DNA from: Deltaproteobacteria bacterium
Lineage (GTDB): Bacteria; Desulfobacterota; Desulfuromonadia; Desulfuromonadales; BM103
NCBI GenBank assembly: GCA_024636215.1
Contig: JAGXHL010000057.1
Span: forward strand, 1 to 5,934
Length of the DNA: 5,934 nt
Direction: 5' to 3'
Shown: positions 1 to 5,934 of the stretch, one piece after another
Position numbering within the stretch: position 1 is the first letter of the stretch
Layout: each line of letters opens with the position of its first letter
The notes under the pieces: model-generated
The model's input: the letters and a program-made list of their open reading frames with translations, nothing else
Told to the model about the DNA's origin: nothing
Databases searched by the model: none
Position numbers and translations under genes: made by a program

Positions 1-1
1 G

Positions 2-541
2 ATGACAGTCAAACCAGCCAAGTTCTGCAAAGAATCGAGGGCGATCAAAGCCGCGATGGTTCTTCCCCCCGACACCAATCATTACGGCACCATGTTCGGC
101 GGCAAGGTCATGTCTTATATCGATGACATCGCAGCTATCGCTGCCACCCGTCATGCCCGCACTTCGGTGGTCACCGCCTCGACCGACTCGGTTGATTTTC
201 TTCATCCGATCCGCAACGGTCAGTCCGTCTGTCTTGAAGCCTTCGTCACCTGGACGAAACGCACCTCGGTGGAAGTGTTTGTCAAGGTGGTCTCAGAAGA
301 CATGCTGACCGGCGAACGAGCCGTCTGTGCCACCTCGTTTGTCACTTTTGTGGCGATCGACATCAATGGCGAAAAGCAGATGGTTCCGGCGGTTATACCC
401 GAGACCGAGTTGGAAAAGTTTCTGTTTGAGGGAGCGCCGAAGCGGGCGCAGAAGCGACTGGAGAAGCGCGAGGGATCGAAGGCTCTGGCAGCAAGATTCG
501 GCGCGATGAGTCTTTGGCAAATTGAACAAGCCGATGTCTGA
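2..541 (+). CDS. Hotdog-fold acyl-CoA thioesterase (YkhA/ACOT-like)
   Basis: This 179-residue protein should hydrolyse acyl-CoA thioesters to free fatty acid and CoA in the cytoplasm. Seen: the N-terminal signature of the acyl-CoA thioester hydrolase branch of the hotdog fold, PPDTNHYGTMFGGKVMSYID at residues 22-41. It contains the Asn26 and Asp41 positions that family members use for catalysis, followed by the alanine-rich hotdog helix and the strand VVTASTDSVDF. The C-terminal ~40 residues are charged (KRAQKRLEKREG) and look like the usual tail of this group. The distance from Met1 to the signature fits the family's usual start, so the gene is probably complete, but only one base precedes the ATG and no ribosome binding site can be seen. 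It is the only plus-strand gene and looks unrelated to the accessory genes that follow. No clear terminator hairpin follows the stop; 542-703 holds no recognisable gene. Confidence 0.88.
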   Translation: MTVKPAKFCKESRAIKAAMVLPPDTNHYGTMFGGKVMSYIDDIAAIAATRHARTSVVTASTDSVDFLHPIRNGQSVCLEAFVTWTKRTSVEVFVKVVSEDMLTGERAVCATSFVTFVAIDINGEKQMVPAVIPETELEKFLFEGAPKRAQKRLEKREGSKALAARFGAMSLWQIEQADV

Positions 542-703
542 CCGACCTTTATGATGTTGTGCAGCCCATAAAACTGTCCTGAGACATGCTCTGAATAGGG
601 CAGAATCTTCAATTAGATTTACCGCCATATCGCAGGTGACGGCAAAGTCAGTGAGTAGCAGAGCGTCGTCAAGATCGCTTTTGTGTTGAAGCAGCATTCA
701 TTA

Positions 704-760
704 TAGACTTGTTTTTTTGGGGCATCTTTTTGTTCCTTATTTAAATTTCAGGCACAACGC
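704..760 (-). repeat. 57-bp direct repeat, left copy: regulator stop plus pRiA4b gene head
   Basis: This matches 2285-2342 with two substitutions and one single-base indel (four G here, five there). Read on the minus strand it holds the last codons of the HTH regulator (Arg-Cys-Ala-stop), the AT-rich spacer with an AAGGAA ribosome binding site, and an ATG (725-723) followed by a few codons matching the start of the pRiA4b-family gene. The one-base deletion shifts that frame, and the match ends after about seven codons, so no pRiA4b protein can be made from here. The remnant frame that begins at this ATG is short (MPQKNKSIMNAASTQKRS) and meaningless. Confidence 0.9.
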
Positions 761-1122
761 TTACCGAGGTTGAATTCGATCTGAAATTCGGTGGCGTTGA
801 CGACGGGCTTGATCTGGTTTCTTTCCTTTGTCAGGCTGACGATGCCGTAGCTCTCCATGGTTTTCAGGGTACGCGACAGGCTGCTGCTTTTCCGTCCGGT
901 CAGTTCTCCCAGTTCCTTGATTGAGGCAGGGTGCTTTTCGAGAATGGTCTGCAACAGTGACCGATTCTCGCCGCCCAACACCTGTGCCGCAGACTGAAGT
1001 GATTCGAACCAGATTTTGGGTCCGTCACTGTCAGCTGTCATCTCACCGCGAATCCTGGCCCGTGTCATGCGACGAAATTCTTCAGGCGTGGCAATCCCTA
1101 TTTTAAGGGGGTTTTTGCTCAT
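748..1122 (-). CDS. HTH transcriptional regulator, COG4190 / HVO_A0114-like (possible orphan antitoxin)
   Basis: This 124-residue protein is a probable DNA-binding autoregulator. Seen: a middle block PKIWFESLQSAAQVLGGENR and a winged-HTH region (about residues 50-105) with SIKELGELTGRKSSSLSRTL as the HTH and MESYGIVSLTKER leading into the wing. This is the arrangement of the COG4190/HVO_A0114 putative DNA-binding family. Known: members often accompany a small toxin gene (TumE/DUF6516 type). No such partner is present here, so if this is an antitoxin it is an orphan. Start choice: ATG at 1122 has GGAG seven bases upstream; the longer GTG start at 1152 would put the operator inside the coding region. 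The last codons lie in the 57-bp repeat, whose other copy leads into the pRiA4b-family gene, suggesting that gene was once the downstream partner. Confidence 0.75.
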   Translation of the reverse strand: MSKNPLKIGIATPEEFRRMTRARIRGEMTADSDGPKIWFESLQSAAQVLGGENRSLLQTILEKHPASIKELGELTGRKSSSLSRTLKTMESYGIVSLTKERNQIKPVVNATEFQIEFNLGKRCA

Positions 1123-1145
1123 GGCGCGTCTCCGTTTAACCACAA

Positions 1146-1189
1146 TTAACACCTGATGTTAACTTAATTCAGGGTGGGCAGATTGTCAA
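1146..1189 (-). promoter_or_regulatory. Promoter and palindromic operator of the HTH regulator gene
   Basis: On the minus strand there is a perfect TTGACA -35 box (1184-1189), a 17-base spacer and a weak TAAGTT -10 box (1161-1166). A perfect inverted repeat, TTAACA-CCTGA-TGTTAA (1146-1162), covers the -10 and predicted start of transcription. A further TTAAC lies at 1136-1140, ten bases from the first arm, so the sites share one face of the helix. The layout suggests autorepression by the regulator. Seen: the boxes and repeat. Inferred: their use. Confidence 0.6.
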
Positions 1190-1240
1190 GCCAGGTGCAC
1201 TGATTTGTTTTCTGGTGGCGGGGATTAAAAGCTTATGTGC

Positions 1241-1344
1241 CAGGTTTTGACGCTGAAAATGAGGCTGTAAGAGCAAAAATGGGGTGTTTTTTGATGTAAT
1301 CTTTCAGTGTTTTCAAACGGTTAACTTGGTCCGACCCCGGATTC
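1241..1344. repeat. 104-bp dispersed direct repeat, copy A
   Basis: This is identical to 4856-4959 except for one base (G at 1252, C at 4867), in the same orientation. On the minus strand it begins near GGGGTCGGACCAAGTTAACC and runs through an A/T-rich stretch. The GTCGGACC motif recurs near the RAYT fragments in this window, so the repeat is probably the non-coding end of a RAYT/REP-type element. Near-identity implies recent spread or gene conversion. Confidence 0.9.
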
Positions 1345-1369
1345 CACGGATTCCAATTTACGTGTTTTC

Positions 1370-1549
1370 CTAGTTTTTCACAGCGCGCTTCTCGGCCAGC
1401 GTCAGGTGGTGGTCGTTGATGCGGTCGCCGTCAAAGACGTGATACCAAGGCGCGGATTCCACATCCTTGCCACGGTCCTTGTCCCACTTGATATGGAACC
1501 CGTCTAACGCCCAGGACAGCCTTTTAATGGGTGCCACATATGTTGAGAT
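1370..1549 (-). pseudogene. 3' fragment of an unrecognised gene
   Basis: In frame with the TAG at 1372-1370 there are about 58 protein-like residues: YVAPIKRLSWALDGFHIKWD, then a charged turn, then PWYHVFDGDRINDHHLTLAE and a basic end. Codon use is GC-rich at third positions, unlike the frame further upstream, which turns into low-quality text as soon as it crosses the palindrome at 1552-1585. The fragment therefore appears to be a C-terminus cut at that palindrome, with no start codon of its own. I do not recognise the family with confidence. The end of a large DNA-modifying or helicase-type protein is one possibility, but this is a guess. Confidence 0.5.
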
Positions 1550-1551
1550 CT

Positions 1552-1585
1552 GGGACACTACAGGGACACTTCCGGAAGTGCCCCC
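1552..1585. repeat. Palindromic REP-like repeat, copy A (GGGACACTTCCGGAAGTG type)
   Basis: This matches 5269-5302 with three mismatches in 34 bases, in the same orientation. The core is an inverted repeat, GGGACACT-TCCGGA-AGTGCCCC (1563-1584), with one imperfect pair. Such palindromes are typical of REP sequences mobilised by RAYT transposases (established for the class; assignment here is inferred). It sits exactly where the gene fragment on its left loses its reading frame. Confidence 0.75.
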
Positions 1586-1605
1586 AATTTTCAGCAGCTG
1601 ATGAT

Positions 1606-1677
1606 TCAACCTTCTCCGGCCCAGAAATCCTCGATCCGGTCCATCTCTTCCTCGCTGAACCCAAAATAATGGGCGAT
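1606..1677 (-). pseudogene. Short protein-like remnant downstream of pRiA4b gene
   Basis: Twenty-five bases after the pRiA4b stop, one frame reads 23 residues, IAHYFGFSEEEMDRIEDFWA then a short end and TGA. A TAG precedes it directly and it has no start codon, though GGAGG and GGGGGA lie just upstream. It reads like a natural acidic C-terminus, perhaps of a gene that once followed in the same operon. I cannot name the family, and chance is possible. Confidence 0.22.
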
Positions 1678-1701
1678 CTATGTCCCCCGTTTCCTCCGAT
1701 A

Positions 1702-2307
1702 TCATATATCACTGAATGCCCATTCAAACCGCTCTTTTGGATCACTGAAAACAACATCAGATGGATCGAATTCCTCCGGGTTGAATGGTCCCTCTTTCAT
1801 TGAGGTCACCCAGCTTTTCATGTCAGCATGCTCCTCGTGCTGTGGATCGTCCAAAATCTTCAGCAGGTCCTTATAGCCCCATGGCCCGCCACAGTCTTCC
1901 GGAGGACAGGCCCGCTTGCCTTTGATGCAGCGAGGATATTGCTGGCCCGGCTCGGCCGGCAGGACTTTCTCGAGTTCGACCCTGTGCCGCCAATTATCCC
2001 CGAAGTCGTACACATACTCGAAAATAGGCCGCTCCAGGTTCAGAAACCTGGAGACCCGATTTTTCCATCCTGGCCGGGTGTCGTCGTCGAACTCTTCGTC
2101 TGGAATTCCAAAGCTTAAAGTATTGCCCTTGGTATCGGGAATGCGAAATTCATGCAGGTGGCAGTCGAACCAGCCCATGGCATCCTGGATGGCAACATGC
2201 AGATCCCAGAAGGTGAAATGATTCGGCACCTGGATGCGACGCCAGATCGGAGGTTTGGTGTCTTTCAGGGTGATTTTGAACTCGTAGACTTGTTTTTTTG
2301 GGGGCAT
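1702..2307 (-). CDS. Plasmid pRiA4b ORF-3 family protein
   Basis: This 201-residue protein belongs to the pRiA4b ORF-3-like family (PF07929), found on plasmids and in accessory regions; its biochemical role is not established. Seen, in order: YEFKITLKDTKPPIWRRIQV (8-27), the helix FTFWDLHVAIQDAMGW (31-46), HEFRI (52-56), the hallmark YVYDFGDNWRHRVELEKVL (98-116), and the cysteine block P-R-C-x6-C-PPED-C-GGPWGY (125-145), which could bind metal. The end, FNPEEFDPSDVVFSDPKERF, is the usual family tail, so the protein is full length. ATG at 2307 has AAGGAA about nine bases upstream, inside the 58-bp repeat. That repeat also carries the last few codons of the HTH regulator (Arg-Cys-Val-stop), so an ancestral regulator-pRiA4b operon is implied, although no regulator is left upstream here. 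No strong promoter is evident. Confidence 0.9.
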   Translation of the reverse strand: MPPKKQVYEFKITLKDTKPPIWRRIQVPNHFTFWDLHVAIQDAMGWFDCHLHEFRIPDTKGNTLSFGIPDEEFDDDTRPGWKNRVSRFLNLERPIFEYVYDFGDNWRHRVELEKVLPAEPGQQYPRCIKGKRACPPEDCGGPWGYKDLLKILDDPQHEEHADMKSWVTSMKEGPFNPEEFDPSDVVFSDPKERFEWAFSDI

Positions 2308-2342
2308 CTATTTGTTCCTTATTTAAATTTCAGACACAACGC
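2285..2342 (-). repeat. 58-bp direct repeat, right copy: regulator tail remnant plus pRiA4b gene start
   Basis: This is the partner of 704-760. Here the pRiA4b side is functional: ribosome binding site, ATG and first seven codons continue into the full gene. Its regulator side is only a remnant: Arg-Cys-Val-stop, then similarity to the regulator ends abruptly at 2342. The two copies are mirror images in what they keep. The offset between copies is 1581-1582 bp. Confidence 0.9.
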
Positions 2343-2443
2343 AACAAGAACTTAAGATCTATGGGCGTGTTTTTGGGTTCAAATTGCCGTCGGAATCAGT
2401 GGCGAGATTGGCTTTGAATACGCAGATTTGATAATCATATAAA

Positions 2444-2525
2444 GGGCACCTCCTGGCATAACGAGAATGCAAAGACTTCCTGATATGCTGTTACAGAGAC
2501 CAATCTCTAACATCAGGAGGTGCCC
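2444..2525. repeat. 82-bp element with perfect 12-bp inverted ends
   Basis: GGGCACCTCCTG (2444-2455) and CAGGAGGTGCCC (2514-2525) are exact inverse complements around a 58-base interior. The interior contains a further near-complement, TCCTGATATGCTG with ATGC and CAT pieces, that could extend a fold. No clear target-site duplication is visible. It may be a MITE-like or IS-derived piece, or a structured RNA. The surrounding gene-free interval 2343-2620 shows nothing else I can name, apart from a TTGACAGTATAAT string on the minus strand (around 2527-2539), whose two boxes are adjacent and so not a usable promoter pair. Confidence 0.7.
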
Positions 2526-2620
2526 CTAATTATACTGTCAAGTTAGTTTTTTAAGAGCGTCCCGACTTCCACGACTTCCGTAAAACGTGAATGGGAATGA
2601 AATAAACCGCATCAATCAGC

Positions 2621-3649
2621 TTAATTTCCCAAACGTTTACGTGCCGCCGCAATGGCGCTGTGCAGCTTCGCTTCGAAGACCTCGCGCGGCGGCAGCACGG
2701 TCACATAATCGGCGACATGGATGGAGGATTGGTCGAGTTCCAGCAGCTCAATCTGTTCCGTCTTTTTGCCGGCGCAGAGGATGATCCCCAACGGCGGGTT
2801 CTCGCCCGCTTCCTGTTCATGCTTGGCGAGGTAACGCAGGTAAAGCTCCATCTGCCCTTTGTATTCAGCCTTGAATCCACCGATCTTTAAATCGATAGCG
2901 ATGAGCCGTTTGAGACGACGGTTATAAAAGAGCAGGTCGATATAAAAATCGTCGCTGTCAATTTGCAAGCGTTTCTGCCGGGCGATAAAGGTAAAACCTG
3001 CGCCCAACTCCAGAAGAAACTGCTCCAGCTCGCGCAGAATGGCGTCTTCGAGATCTTTTTCCAGGTAGTGGTCGTTCAGCTCCAGAAAATCCAGCACATA
3101 GGGATCTTTCAGAACCAGCGCCGAGGTCATCTCGCCCCGTTTGGCCAGGGCCTGCAATTCGAAGCGGATGGTCTCCTCCGGCTTTTTCGACAGGGCGGTG
3201 CGCTCGAACAGCATGGAGTCGACCCGTTCGCTAAGGGTCCGGGTAGACCAGCCTTCCATCTGGGCCATTTGAGCATAGAAGTCGCGTTTGAGGGGATCGT
3301 CGAGAGCAAGCAGGACACGAAAATGAGTCCAGCTCAATTGTGCACTCAGTGCGTGCACAATCTCAAAATCGGGGTAGGCTTGCGCAAAGCTCACCATGTA
3401 AAGAAGGTTCCTTTTTGTCCATCCCCGACCGTAATGGGCCGTCAGTTGCTTGGCCAGGTTGAGCACCATCTCTTTGCCGTACTCGCCACGTTCGCCTTTG
3501 AGCACCTCGGTATGAATGCGCTGCCCCACCTGCCAGTACAGCAGGGTCAACTCGACATTGACCGCCACCGTCGCCCGCTGCCGGGCGGAGTCGATGAGGG
3601 TTTTGATTTCGTTAAAAAGGGGAATGGTTTTCGGAAGCATGGCATTCAT
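2621..3649 (-). CDS. PDDEXK nuclease domain protein, YhcG/DUF1016 family
   Basis: This 342-residue predicted nuclease is likely DNA-acting; members are common in defence and mobile regions, but their target is not established. Numbering from the chosen ATG: an N-terminal YhcG_N (DUF1016) region, about residues 10-165, contains LLYWQVGQRI, YGKEMVLNLAKQL, RGWTKRNLLYM and SWTHFRVLLAL. A C-terminal nuclease domain, about 175-335, holds YIDLLFYNRRLKRLIAIDLK (Asp238, Asp253-x-Lys255) and KGQMELYLRYL, matching the family's D...(D/E)xK core with Asp in place of the more common Glu. Start: ATG at 3649 has GGAGG seven bases upstream; the longer TTG at 3670 would overlap that site. The length is normal for the family and no frameshift is seen. 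It lies downstream of the RhuM remnant on the same strand, separated by a GTAGGATGC repeat element; no clear promoter was found. Confidence 0.9.
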   Translation of the reverse strand: MNAMLPKTIPLFNEIKTLIDSARQRATVAVNVELTLLYWQVGQRIHTEVLKGERGEYGKEMVLNLAKQLTAHYGRGWTKRNLLYMVSFAQAYPDFEIVHALSAQLSWTHFRVLLALDDPLKRDFYAQMAQMEGWSTRTLSERVDSMLFERTALSKKPEETIRFELQALAKRGEMTSALVLKDPYVLDFLELNDHYLEKDLEDAILRELEQFLLELGAGFTFIARQKRLQIDSDDFYIDLLFYNRRLKRLIAIDLKIGGFKAEYKGQMELYLRYLAKHEQEAGENPPLGIILCAGKKTEQIELLELDQSSIHVADYVTVLPPREVFEAKLHSAIAAARKRLGN

Positions 3650-3677
3650 GCGGCGCCCTCCGTTTGACAAACACCAT

Positions 3678-3771
3678 GTAGGATGCCGGTGAGCGAAGCG
3701 AACCGCATCATGAAATCTGGTCGGCGGGTTCGGTGGGGCAGGTTGCGGTTTACAGGTTCACCGCATCCTAC
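3678..3771. repeat. GTAGGATGC inverted-repeat element (REP/MITE-like)
   Basis: The left end GTAGGATGCCGGTGA (3678-3692) and right end TCACCGCATCCTAC (3758-3771) are inverted copies with a single extra C. The interior has further complementary pieces (GAGCGAAGCGAACCGCATC; GCGGTTTACAGGTTCACCG). Repeats with GTAGGATGCGGT ends are widespread dispersed elements in proteobacteria (general knowledge). It lies between the broken end of the RhuM remnant and the PDDEXK gene, in the latter's upstream region. Confidence 0.7.
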
Positions 3772-3782
3772 CGTTTGGGCTC

Positions 3783-4088
3783 TCATGCGCTGGTCTCCAT
3801 GGGGGGCTGAACTATTAAGCAGGGCTTAACAGTTGCCTCCCGCTCCAATTCGTTGTCCGCGAAAATACGATTCAACTGCTGGTTAACGGCGGGAACCGAA
3901 ACATCATAAAGGGTTGCTATTATTTTCTACGTCAGCCAGATGTTTTCATCTTCATAACGCATTTCCATACTGGTTTCCGGGCTGCCGACCGCCGCGGCAA
4001 ACGTCAGGTATTCAGCGGCCGATGAACGGGCAATAGATGTCTCGTTCTTTCCAGGCATCTGCTTAGCTTTGTCTTTACCTTTGTGCAT
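3783..4088 (-). pseudogene. RhuM-family gene remnant with internal amber stop
   Basis: The frame starts at ATG 4088, which has GAGG seven bases upstream, and reads 53 residues ending MRYEDENIWLT, then TAG (3929-3927), then continues in frame with KIIATLYDVSVPAVNQQLNR, IFADNELEREATVKPCLIVQ and a stop at 3785-3783. This is the N-terminal region of the RhuM-like proteins (PF13310), where the sequence after WLT is normally Gln-Lys-Met. A single CAG to TAG change explains the stop. The match decays at the LIVQ position, so only about 100 of the usual 300 or more residues remain. Both the nonsense codon and the 3' truncation make it a pseudogene. Family role is uncertain: named after a Salmonella pathogenicity-island gene and frequent beside toxin-antitoxin and mobile genes. 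Confidence 0.8.
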
Positions 4089-4139
4089 TCAATACCTCGC
4101 CGGTTTTGAGAACTGTCCCGGGAATGTCCGAAAAGAATG

Positions 4140-4271
4140 TCAATGAATCAACAGCGTCCCGTCCGCGCGGGTTGCCACCAGAGACTGGCCCAGCGCTTCT
4201 GCTGCCTGGGCGACCGTAAAGGTGTAACGGCCTTTCGCCATCAAATTCGAAACAAAATTTACTGCGAGCAT
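4140..4271 (-). pseudogene. N-terminal fragment of an AbiEi-like antitoxin
   Basis: ATG at 4271, with GGAG eight bases upstream, opens a 43-residue frame: MLAVNFVSNLMAKGRYTFTV, AQAAEALGQSLVATRA, then DGTLLIH and stop. The first 36 residues have the pattern of the N-terminal winged-HTH start of AbiEi-type antitoxins (short helix, then GRYTFT, then the A-x-x-ALG helix, then a recognition helix beginning SLVATRA). The recognition helix is cut there and the rest of the protein, as well as any AbiEii nucleotidyltransferase toxin, is missing. Known: AbiEi represses its own operon through inverted repeats, and a perfect one lies just upstream here. The family call rests on a short stretch, so it is moderate. 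Confidence 0.5.
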
Positions 4272-4300
4272 GACACTCACTCCGTATGAATTGATGGCAT

Positions 4301-4329
4301 AAAGTAACGTTTTTCGTTACTTTTGTCGA
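4301..4329 (-). promoter_or_regulatory. Operator and promoter of the AbiEi-like fragment
   Basis: A perfect inverted repeat with 9-bp arms, AAAGTAACG (4301-4309) and CGTTACTTT (4315-4323), surrounds TTTTT. On the minus strand it fills the space between a TCGACA -35-like box (4324-4329) and a TACTTT -10-like box (4301-4306), 17 bases apart, and lies about 30 bases before the AbiEi-like ATG. This is the expected position for an autorepression site. The repeat is certain; its use is inferred. Confidence 0.6.
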
Positions 4330-4461
4330 GTGATGCATACAGTCAATCAACCTGCTGTCGAATATTCTTGGCTGAAGCGGTGCTTTTACCATCAGCCCTC
4401 GACAAAGATTTATTGTTACTTCTTCCCAGTCACAGCCTTCACCTCCGCCAACAGCTTGCCA

Positions 4462-4500
4462 AACGGCGCCGGGATAACGGAATCGGGGTTTGCGTGGCAC
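4462..4500 (-). pseudogene. RAYT transposase head, fragment 3 (MPRKPRFRYPGAV)
   Basis: From a GTG at 4500, thirteen codons read MPRKPRFRYPGAV, the characteristic opening of one group of REP-associated tyrosine transposases (normally continuing YHVM-x-RG). The frame then becomes unlike any transposase. At the same point another frame reads IPAPFGKLLAEVKAVTGKK and stops (about 4474-4418), which may be the C-terminus of an unidentified gene. The junction lies in the shared bases CCGGCGCCGTT. No HUH motif or catalytic tyrosine remains. Confidence 0.45.
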
Positions 4501-4558
4501 GCAAGGGGCGTAGACGAGAATCTCCGTTTGTCGATCTTGACCCCTTATGCCATAAATA

Positions 4559-4738
4559 ATGGTTGGGCATCAGGCAGTACGACCAGATTCGCATGCCATG
4601 CGCCTGACTCCATTCAAGGGCCAGATCAAGATAAAGTTGATAATCCGATTCGTGGAAAAACGTTGATTGGCGCCGATTGCCGCGCTGAGTGATATGATGC
4701 GGAATCCCAGGTGCAACGACTCGTGCGAGACGTGCCAT
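4559..4738 (-). pseudogene. RAYT (REP-associated Y1 transposase) head, fragment 2, cut at the HUH motif
   Basis: ATG at 4738, preceded closely by AGGAGG, opens 60 residues typical of Y1/IS200-like RAYT proteins: MARLARVVAPGIPHHITQRG (1-20), NRRQSTFFHESDYQLYLDLA (21-40), then LEWSQAHGMRIWSYCLMPNH (41-60). Family members continue MPNHVHL, the His-x-His metal site; here the similarity stops at MPNH and the next bases read TATTTATGGCATAAGGGGTC. The downstream catalytic Tyr region is absent, so it cannot be active. A complete protein would be about 200-300 residues. A possible TTGTCG/TAGAAT promoter (minus strand, 4806-4811 and 4783-4788, 17-base spacer) remains upstream. Confidence 0.85.
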
Positions 4739-4855
4739 CCCCCCTCCTCTAAACATTGCATTACATAAAATCAATAGTAGTCATTCTAGTAGAAAGGACC
4801 TCTGTCGACAACGAATATGTTTTGCCGCAATTAAGTGAGGTGTCCCCTGAACTTG

Positions 4856-4959
4856 CAGGTTTTGACCCTGAAAATGAGGCTGTAAGAGCAAAAATGGGGT
4901 GTTTTTTGATGTAATCTTTCAGTGTTTTCAAACGGTTAACTTGGTCCGACCCCGGATTC
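4856..4959. repeat. 104-bp dispersed direct repeat, copy B
   Basis: This is the partner of 1241-1344 with one mismatch. Here it lies about 120 bp upstream (minus-strand sense) of RAYT fragment 2 and about 85 bp downstream of RAYT head fragment 1, so it may be the 3' end of the element to which fragment 1 belonged. A GTCGGACC motif also occurs just after the break in fragment 1 (minus strand, near 5024-5031). Confidence 0.9.
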
Positions 4960-5043
4960 GACCGACCCGCTGATCGAAAGCCTCGAACAACTGAACATCC
5001 CGCTGGCAGTTTATAGTTGCACGGGTCCGACACGGCATTCAGC

Positions 5044-5079
5044 ATGGCCTGGCAGGTAGTAACGGTGAGCTCGTGGCAT
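5044..5079 (-). pseudogene. RAYT transposase head, fragment 1 (MPRAHRYYLPGH)
   Basis: ATG at 5079, preceded by GGAGGT at a normal distance, reads MPRAHRYYLPGH, the opening of another well-known RAYT/Y1 transposase group that normally continues VWHITHRCH. After His12 the text becomes AECRVGPVQL and stops. The leader (AATGCAATGATTGGAGG) resembles that of fragment 2 (AATGCAATGTTTAGAGG), supporting a related element. Only the start survives; no catalytic part is present. Confidence 0.6.
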
Positions 5080-5211
5080 GGCCACCTCCAATCATTGCAT
5101 TGCAGATTGCATTAAAAGCCATTTTACCCCAAAAAACATGCTTCTAAGACCATTTTCAGGGGGTCATATCGGTTCTTTCATCAACAATATCAATCTGTTG
5201 CACTGGTCAGA

Positions 5212-5235
5212 CCCGGCAATCATCCCGGCAATCAT
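5212..5235. repeat. Perfect 12-bp tandem duplication
   Basis: CCCGGCAATCAT occurs twice in succession. On the minus strand it begins a 23-codon frame (5235-5164, MIAGMIAGSDQCNRLILLMK and three more residues) with AAGGAGG just upstream. This could be a leader peptide of the RAYT head downstream, but nothing beyond the ribosome binding site supports translation. Confidence 0.6.
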
Positions 5236-5267
5236 AAGCCTCCTTATGTACGGAAATCGTAATTGAA

Positions 5268-5302
5268 GGGGGCACTACAGGGACACTTCCGGGAGTGTCC
5301 CC
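5268..5302. repeat. Palindromic REP-like repeat, copy B
   Basis: GGGACACT-TCCGGG-AGTGTCCC (5280-5301) has perfect 8-bp arms and is preceded by GGGGGCACTACA, matching copy A at 1552-1585. It lies 24 bp past the HEPN stop codon and may limit read-through, but no T-run follows on the minus strand, so I do not call it a terminator. Confidence 0.75.
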
Positions 5303-5325
5303 GGCTCTTATCTTTTTAACATTGT

Positions 5326-5712
5326 TCATTGCAGACGGGTGCGGACCTGCTCTAATGTCCTTTCGGCAATTGCAACGCATCGGGAGCAGACTTCTCGGTC
5401 GGCGAAATGCTCTGGCAGCACTCCAAAAACGGGGTATTTCGAAGGAATGTAGATAGAATCCAGAAGGTCGCATTCCTCGGAAGAGAGCCCCCAAAAACCC
5501 TCCGTATCGGCCGACAATCTGGCCAGTTCCCGAATGTTGTGGGATCTGGGGAATTCTCCCTTTCTCTCCACCAGTGCGGCCTTCAGCGCCTTTTCAACAG
5601 CCTGCTGTGAGTTCTGCAGAGATGCGTTAAGGTAGTCCCGTTCCAAAGAAAGCCGGGCAATTTGGAGGTTCTCATTCGCGTAGGCCAACCAGAGCCGGGT
5701 TTCATCTTTCAT
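5326..5712 (-). CDS. HEPN domain protein, toxin component of a HEPN/MNT pair
   Basis: This 128-residue all-helical HEPN protein (PF05168 type) is a probable RNA-cleaving toxin neutralised by the adjacent MNT nucleotidyltransferase. Seen: LWLAYANENLQIARLSLERD (8-26 region), the core helix NSQQAVEKALKAALV (34-48), SHNIREL (57-63) and IYIPSKYP (88-95), which are the usual landmarks of the family. The classical R-x4-6-H RNase motif is not clear: the nearest is Arg50 with His58, seven residues between them. Catalytic activity is therefore uncertain. ATG at 5712 has GAGG about seven bases upstream and overlaps the end of the MNT gene by 11 bp, indicating translational coupling. Known for related pairs: MNT enzymes silence the HEPN toxin by adding AMP. 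The gene appears intact, with the length usual for the family. Confidence 0.85.
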   Translation of the reverse strand: MKDETRLWLAYANENLQIARLSLERDYLNASLQNSQQAVEKALKAALVERKGEFPRSHNIRELARLSADTEGFWGLSSEECDLLDSIYIPSKYPVFGVLPEHFADREVCSRCVAIAERTLEQVRTRLQ

Positions 5713-5934
5713 AGATGACCTCGCCGCGCTCGATTTCTTTCAGGAAGGTTCCTGGAACCGGCCGGGGGCGCACTGGGATAACATCGATGGGAATCTTCTC
5801 CGCCACTGGGGCAAGTTTGCGCCTGTATTTCAGAGCCAGAGGAAGATAGGCTTCTTCGCTTTCCTGAAAAACGGCAATATCCAGATCATTGGGATTGGAC
5901 GATTCAAGGAAAGAACCGAAGACAACGATCCGAC
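5702..5934 (-). CDS. MNT-type nucleotidyltransferase, antitoxin component (partial, 5' end outside window)
   Basis: The last 76 residues are present; the start lies beyond the window edge. Seen: RIVVFGSFLESSNPNDLDIA with Gly-Ser at 6-7 and Asp16-x-Asp18, the GS-x9-DxD nucleotide- and metal-binding signature of minimal nucleotidyltransferases, and a third acidic residue, Asp50, in KIPIDVIPV. The end, FLKEIERGEVIYER, is typical. The stop (5704-5702) lies inside the HEPN gene, sharing 11 bp. Probable job: to AMPylate or otherwise neutralise the HEPN partner. All three acidic residues are kept, so it should be active. The promoter is outside the window. Confidence 0.87.
   Translation of the reverse strand, partial: RIVVFGSFLESSNPNDLDIAVFQESEEAYLPLALKYRRKLAPVAEKIPIDVIPVRPRPVPGTFLKEIERGEVIYER

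Follow-up and report, generated by a model that had tools for sequence, protein, structure and literature searches.

Relics of an apparent former regulator–pRiA4b junction bound a reordered gene pair in a Desulfuromonadales contig

The window, by which we mean the whole 5,934-nt stretch of DNA analyzed here, carries two intact genes on its minus strand: a pRiA4b ORF-3-like gene (1702..2307; PF07929, E = 4e-65) and, downstream of it in transcription order, a regulator gene (748..1152; PF25212, HVO_A0114, a TumA-like winged helix; E = 2.2e-18). The pRiA4b product matches its family with 219.2 bits (cut-off 26.6) across residues 6–183 of 201, which covers the whole domain, and the regulator matches with 66.2 bits (Pfam cut-off 27.6); the form of the regulator listed for this contig has 124 residues and starts at the ATG at 1122. 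To our knowledge, pRiA4b ORF-3-like proteins have not been tested for function. Between the two genes lies debris (1241..1701) made up of the first copy of a 110-nt repeat (1241–1350; second copy at 4856–4965, 97% identity), a C-terminal piece of another gene (about 1370–1495), a palindromic element (1552–1585; second copy at 5269–5302) and a 67-nt piece common to the window and genome G014 (1613–1679). On the left is a thioesterase gene (2–541), whose named relatives, Geopsychrobacter and Geothermobacter, suggest an origin in the Desulfuromonadales. On the right are an intact YhcG/DUF1016 nuclease gene (2621–3670; a PADLOC PDC-S02 match), a broken gene piece that we take to be RhuM-like (3808–4123; 74–76% DNA identity to stretches near pRiA4b genes in loci L152, L154 and L155), a transposase-like stretch, presumably of the REP-associated type (4559–4853; 99% identity to G021:C54), which the second copy of the 110-nt repeat adjoins, and a HEPN gene with a nucleotidyltransferase-like gene (5326–5932). 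YhcG genes also occur near regulator or pRiA4b genes in L039, L055 and L160. A Pfam scan of eight open reading frames of the window found no recombinase or integrase, and an Rfam scan of 11 sources, the window among them, gave no match in the window.

The two genes stand between direct repeats in the same orientation, 57 nt at 704..760 on the left and 58 nt at 2285..2342 on the right, spaced by about 1.58 kb. The earlier note had placed the repeats at these positions, and alignment bears it out: 55 of 58 columns are identical, with two substitutions and one gap, and the local alignment score of 99 compares with a maximum of 35 among 200 dinucleotide shuffles. The longest exact run common to both copies is 23 nt, and a search of the window for this run with up to three mismatches returned two matches, namely the repeat copies themselves. 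Read on the minus strand, each copy passes from the end of the regulator (CGT TGT GYC TGA) through a 22-nt spacer with a ribosome-binding-like AAGGAAC to an ATG and the first 19–20 nt of pRiA4b, and the copies keep opposite halves of this junction, an anatomy that the note had also described correctly. In the left copy the whole regulator, with its stop TGA at 748–750, is joined to a pRiA4b head of ATG plus 19 nt, which is out of frame, one C being missing after the ATG; in the right copy the codons CGT TGT GTC TGA, the tail of a regulator copy otherwise lost, are joined through the spacer and ATG to the whole, in-frame pRiA4b gene.

The gene ends contained in the repeat are conserved among relatives of both proteins. 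Seven regulators (P0121–P0127, 78–100% identity) have GKRCA, or a variant with a single change, at the C-terminus; an MPPKKQVY-like start is found in most of the close relatives listed for pRiA4b. The closest relatives include, for the regulator, P0122 (98% identical, on 12 metagenome contigs of up to 7638 bp) and, for pRiA4b, P0001 (88%) and P0002 (86%). Because of this conservation the two halves of the repeat appear to be native ends of the genes and not a stop and a start that happen to lie in a mobile repeat, and each copy would therefore derive from a regulator–pRiA4b boundary. The sequence comparison thus supports reading 704–760 and 2285–2342 as relics of a former regulator-to-pRiA4b junction, and likewise supports the proposal, already made in the note, that the present gene order is the reverse of the one the junction implies.

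We give next to no probability to the alternative that the 57–58 nt constitute an independent mobile or regulatory repeat that supplied, by chance, a stop to one gene and a start to the other. Short repeats are indeed common in the window, but the gene ends within this one are conserved, and further copies were not seen in the sources compared: the window holds no copy beyond the two, the 19-base core had no match in viral contigs, the longest match in 165 loci was at most 16 nt, and among the matches listed for 15 relatives (E ≤ 1) none overlapped the repeat. In these same sources the repeat did not turn up in genomes without either gene, the finding that the note had said would refute its reading, and no sign of a dispersed element was seen in them. 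We rejected an attC site of an integron gene cassette, or another structured site, as the fold of the two copies (z = −0.63 and +1.44) is not att-like; on reading the repeat we noticed no R-box pattern, which we take to be the motif of integron attC sites.

The two genes also differ in what lies upstream of them. A putative control region of the regulator (1146..1189, minus strand) combines a TTGACA box with the palindrome TTAACAtcaggTGTTAA (palindrome at 1146–1162) and resembles the region upstream of the regulator in L025; the calls of a promoter consensus scan do not include it. The same scan called no promoter-like site on the pRiA4b strand from 2307 to 2700. It is likely that the regulator retains its own control region and that pRiA4b, without the shared upstream region, would be transcribable only from a promoter upstream of 2342.

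The left edge of the segment can be placed by comparison with a close relative. In a search with the thioesterase across 277 genomes of the class, 21 gave a match of 1e-60 or better; the closest, G021, has 98% protein identity. Window positions 1–536 align to G021 with 95% DNA identity (510/536), as does a further chromosomal stretch at 637..694 with 93% (54/58); the two are contiguous in G021, so the window has about 100 extra bases at 537–636, immediately after the thioesterase gene. At 694/695, nine bases short of the left repeat at 704, the homology breaks off. From there on, the window and the 8.8 kb that follow the thioesterase in G021 have in common no more than short, weak similarities (best 33 nt, E = 0.006), which puts the far, right-hand junction of the segment outside the contig. 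The compared left site of G021 has no copy of the repeat, and G021 gave no match to the regulator or to pRiA4b. As judged by this alignment, 695–5934 is a segment of at least 5.2 kb that is absent from this place in G021, either an island that was inserted or a stretch that was replaced. The sequence that follows the thioesterase also varies among the other relatives listed, so that either state may be the older.

Remnants of insertion sequences lie close to the right edge. Positions 2384..2424 are the terminal 41 nt of an insertion sequence, presumably IS21-like, truncated and with its interior side facing the right repeat; in G021 this element forms the end of three contigs, over 141 identical bases, and a copy with 95% identity lies within a fourth. 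At 2429..2538, on the plus strand, is the 5′ end of a second insertion sequence, which we assume to be IS110-like, with 91% identity to G021:C44, where it leads into a transposase-like start. The repeats are thus separated from the junctions assigned to them by nine bases on the left (695–703) and by about 40 on the right (2343–2383). With the window being a contig of 5,934 bp, a wrong join by the assembler at the repeat might be considered, but we rate it as improbable: the repeat copies are non-identical and share at most 23 nt exactly, and sequence on both sides matches G021 (95% over 1–536, 99% in the transposase-like stretch and 89–91% at the insertion-sequence ends).

We propose, with a probability of roughly 0.58, that the segment descends from two copies of a regulator–pRiA4b pair, probably produced by tandem duplication, one of them truncated at the backbone junction and the other next to the remnant of an insertion sequence. 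With J for the boundary repeat, the ancestral array would have read, head to tail and in transcription order, regulator-J-pRiA4b-regulator-J-pRiA4b; it may have arisen by recombination between dispersed repeats such as the 110-nt repeat in the debris. The outer pRiA4b would then have been cut where the segment meets the backbone and the outer regulator removed by a deletion next to the insertion sequence, leaving J-pRiA4b-debris-regulator-J, in which selection would retain one working copy of each gene.

The note had offered two explanations, tandem duplication with complementary deletions and the excision and reintegration of a circle. The first gained from the position of the edges. Each outer edge lies at or near a junction that can arise without a circle (the end of backbone homology on the left, remnants of insertion sequences on the right), and duplication with complementary loss therefore fits better than a circle. 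The 110-nt repeat and the palindromic element, each with its second copy farther along the window (from 4856 and 5269), show that dispersed repeats able to start duplications are present. Support comes also from L032 and L040, which have the regulator–pRiA4b order, and in L040 a truncated pRiA4b gene after an intact regulator is the same kind of remnant as the one in the left copy. That the promoter scan called no site on the pRiA4b strand from 2307 to 2700 fits as well.

Several observations count against duplication with complementary loss. Beyond the right repeat there is no remnant of a regulator (best score 16, shuffle mean 18.3), and beyond the left repeat there is none of pRiA4b (score 20, reached by 16% of 200 shuffles); one of the six remnant comparisons, the right flank against the debris, gave a weak signal (score 24, 2% of shuffles), and none of the six was convincing. 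It is also unlikely, by our estimate from gene length roughly 1 in 1000, that two independent random cuts would fall as near the spacer as these do, at about 13 and 22 nt. The left cut can be attributed to the backbone junction, but independent random losses would seldom bring both cuts to within about 20 nt of the spacer. Further, no relative was found with a pair from the same two subfamilies.

Such pairs are rare among the loci compared. Class searches found the regulator in 54 of 277, 18 of 257 and 56 of 389 genomes, and pRiA4b in 30 of the 277 genomes of the first class. Neighbors were counted in fetched loci only (at most 30 per class search, some of them ending soon after the gene), and in these, 135 distinct regulator genes include two (L032 and L040) that are followed directly, on the same strand, by pRiA4b; these two are also the only ones with pRiA4b anywhere in the locus. 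Both loci contain a block of a TumE-like frame, regulator and pRiA4b (L032:3650–5010 and L040:3650–4555), in which the pRiA4b of L040 is cut after about 44 codons. The TumE frame of L040 has a stop near its end. In a tree of 23 rows, where several long branches were flagged, the pRiA4b genes of L032 and of the window fall in different strongly supported groups (100/100), from which it follows that the L032 pair is not the same operon as the window pair. As far as sequences go, adjacency of the two families is real but rare, and L032 and L040 are not direct ancestors of the window pair. The possibility, raised in the note, that the two families are never adjacent elsewhere was thus narrowly escaped. 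On plasmid CP014964.1, no pRiA4b product is annotated within the 8.2 kb examined.

Another neighbor is a TumE-like frame. Among the 80 regulator loci that were the best of 253 relatives in a regulator-family scan of genome contigs, 42 have a frame with a TumE-like motif, by a pattern of our own definition, upstream of the regulator. DUF6516 lies beneath the match in 3 of 40 plasmid matches; according to PMC10584680, DUF6516 is TumE and TumA is its antitoxin. Comparison of the 42 TumE-like frames with the window gave no convincing TumE relic (best E = 0.044 among the matches listed).

The rarity of the pair bears on the idea that the two halves come from two related regulator–pRiA4b pairs that were acquired separately and brought together among toxin–antitoxin and defense genes. 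In its favor are the three columns of 58 at which the repeat copies differ, the abundance in the window of pieces of other mobile genes, and the scatter of close relatives of both proteins across many metagenome contigs; but a pair found at 2 of 135 distinct regulator genes in the fetched loci would have to have been acquired twice, in the same orientation and 1.58 kb apart, and we consider this unlikely.

A circle carrying regulator-J-pRiA4b, excised and reintegrated by recombination at J, would place J at both ends and leave a segment that could still excise. The geometry fits exactly, and the note's statement that recombination between the repeats would today release a 1.58-kb circle restoring regulator-J-pRiA4b is right in this respect, but no recombinase was found among the eight frames scanned, and the longest exact run is 23 nt. 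The history of a circle gained no positive support at the window: no J-like sequence lies at the G021 site or, among the matches listed in the 15 relatives, overlaps J; J does not fold; and had a circle integrated into another J, the outer genes would be whole. We regard it as distinctly unlikely. What can be said for it by analogy comes from L048, in which a TumE–TumA module, with no other gene, forms a clean insert of about 0.9 kb (L048:3444–4414) that is bounded by direct repeats of 55 bp (85.5% identity) and lies at the 3′ end of tRNA-Leu. The empty site is preserved in G947 (L320), where the matches of L048:2400–3476 and 4360–5000 overlap by 33 bases, and the insert has no integrase-sized frame. 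The reading frame of the L048 regulator runs into the tRNA repeat. This locus shows that TumE–TumA modules are insertable between direct repeats; it does not show that the window segment was so inserted.

Direct repeats do flank TumA-like loci elsewhere. A repeat of at least 28 nt and at least 80% identity within 2.6 kb flanks the gene in 21 of 134 distinct regulator loci, against 2 of 44 pRiA4b and none of 20 thioesterase loci under the same criterion, sets that differ in flank length; where at least 1.5 kb was available on both sides, the counts are 13 of 77, 0 of 19 and 0 of 9, respectively. In 33 full-length regulator loci, repeats occur at the gene in 6; moving the position by 1850 bases gives 1 of 66 (Fisher P = 0.005). 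We read several of these repeats as being of the REP or inverted-repeat element type. L079, a candidate for a second insertion, was dropped, its repeat being dispersed in that family. In L030, a 31-bp direct repeat (1258–1288 and 2566–2596) includes, in one copy, the ATG and the first five codons of the gene that follows TumE–TumA; the other copy lies upstream of the module. That 704–2342 is itself a tiny mobile cassette without its own recombinase, and that modules of the TumA type move as minimal units between direct repeats of 30–60 bp, we hold to be highly improbable; if it were true, L048 would be its clearest case and the window a cassette whose partner gene travels too.

Under duplication with complementary loss, the locus would be a legible record of how two genes of a small bacterial operon can exchange places when neither an inversion nor a simple insertion is involved. 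The locus further hints that TumA-like regulators may be linked recurrently with proteins of the pRiA4b ORF-3 type, the two being adjacent in L032, in L040 and presumably in the ancestor of the window, with pRiA4b genes of different clades.

Among known systems, the integrative element of L048 resembles the window in having a regulator-containing unit between direct repeats of 50–60 bp, but its target is a tRNA and a relative preserves the empty site, neither of which was found for the window. In the L032 and L040 blocks, as in the ancestor proposed for the window, pRiA4b lies directly 3′ of the regulator on the same strand, at a gap of about 40–50 nt depending on the start codon; unlike the window, they have a TumE-like frame upstream, a pRiA4b about 40% identical and, among the matches listed, no duplicated junction. 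The window regulator belongs to the same family as the genes downstream of TumE-like frames in the TumE–TumA toxin–antitoxin superfamily (PMC10584680), whereas no TumE gene was found beside it and its presumed partner is pRiA4b. No bacterial case of exactly this kind came up among the papers listed. Tandem duplication–random loss is a model of gene-order change treated, in those papers, mostly for mitochondrial genomes. The window departs from it in being a bacterial two-gene unit with outer edges near a backbone junction and an insertion-sequence remnant, and in that no longer relics of the lost copies were found. What it shares with the model is that order A-B turns into B-A and that the outer ends retain relics of the A/B boundary. 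We regard the locus as a rearrangement scar of an ordinary type, though in an unusual setting.
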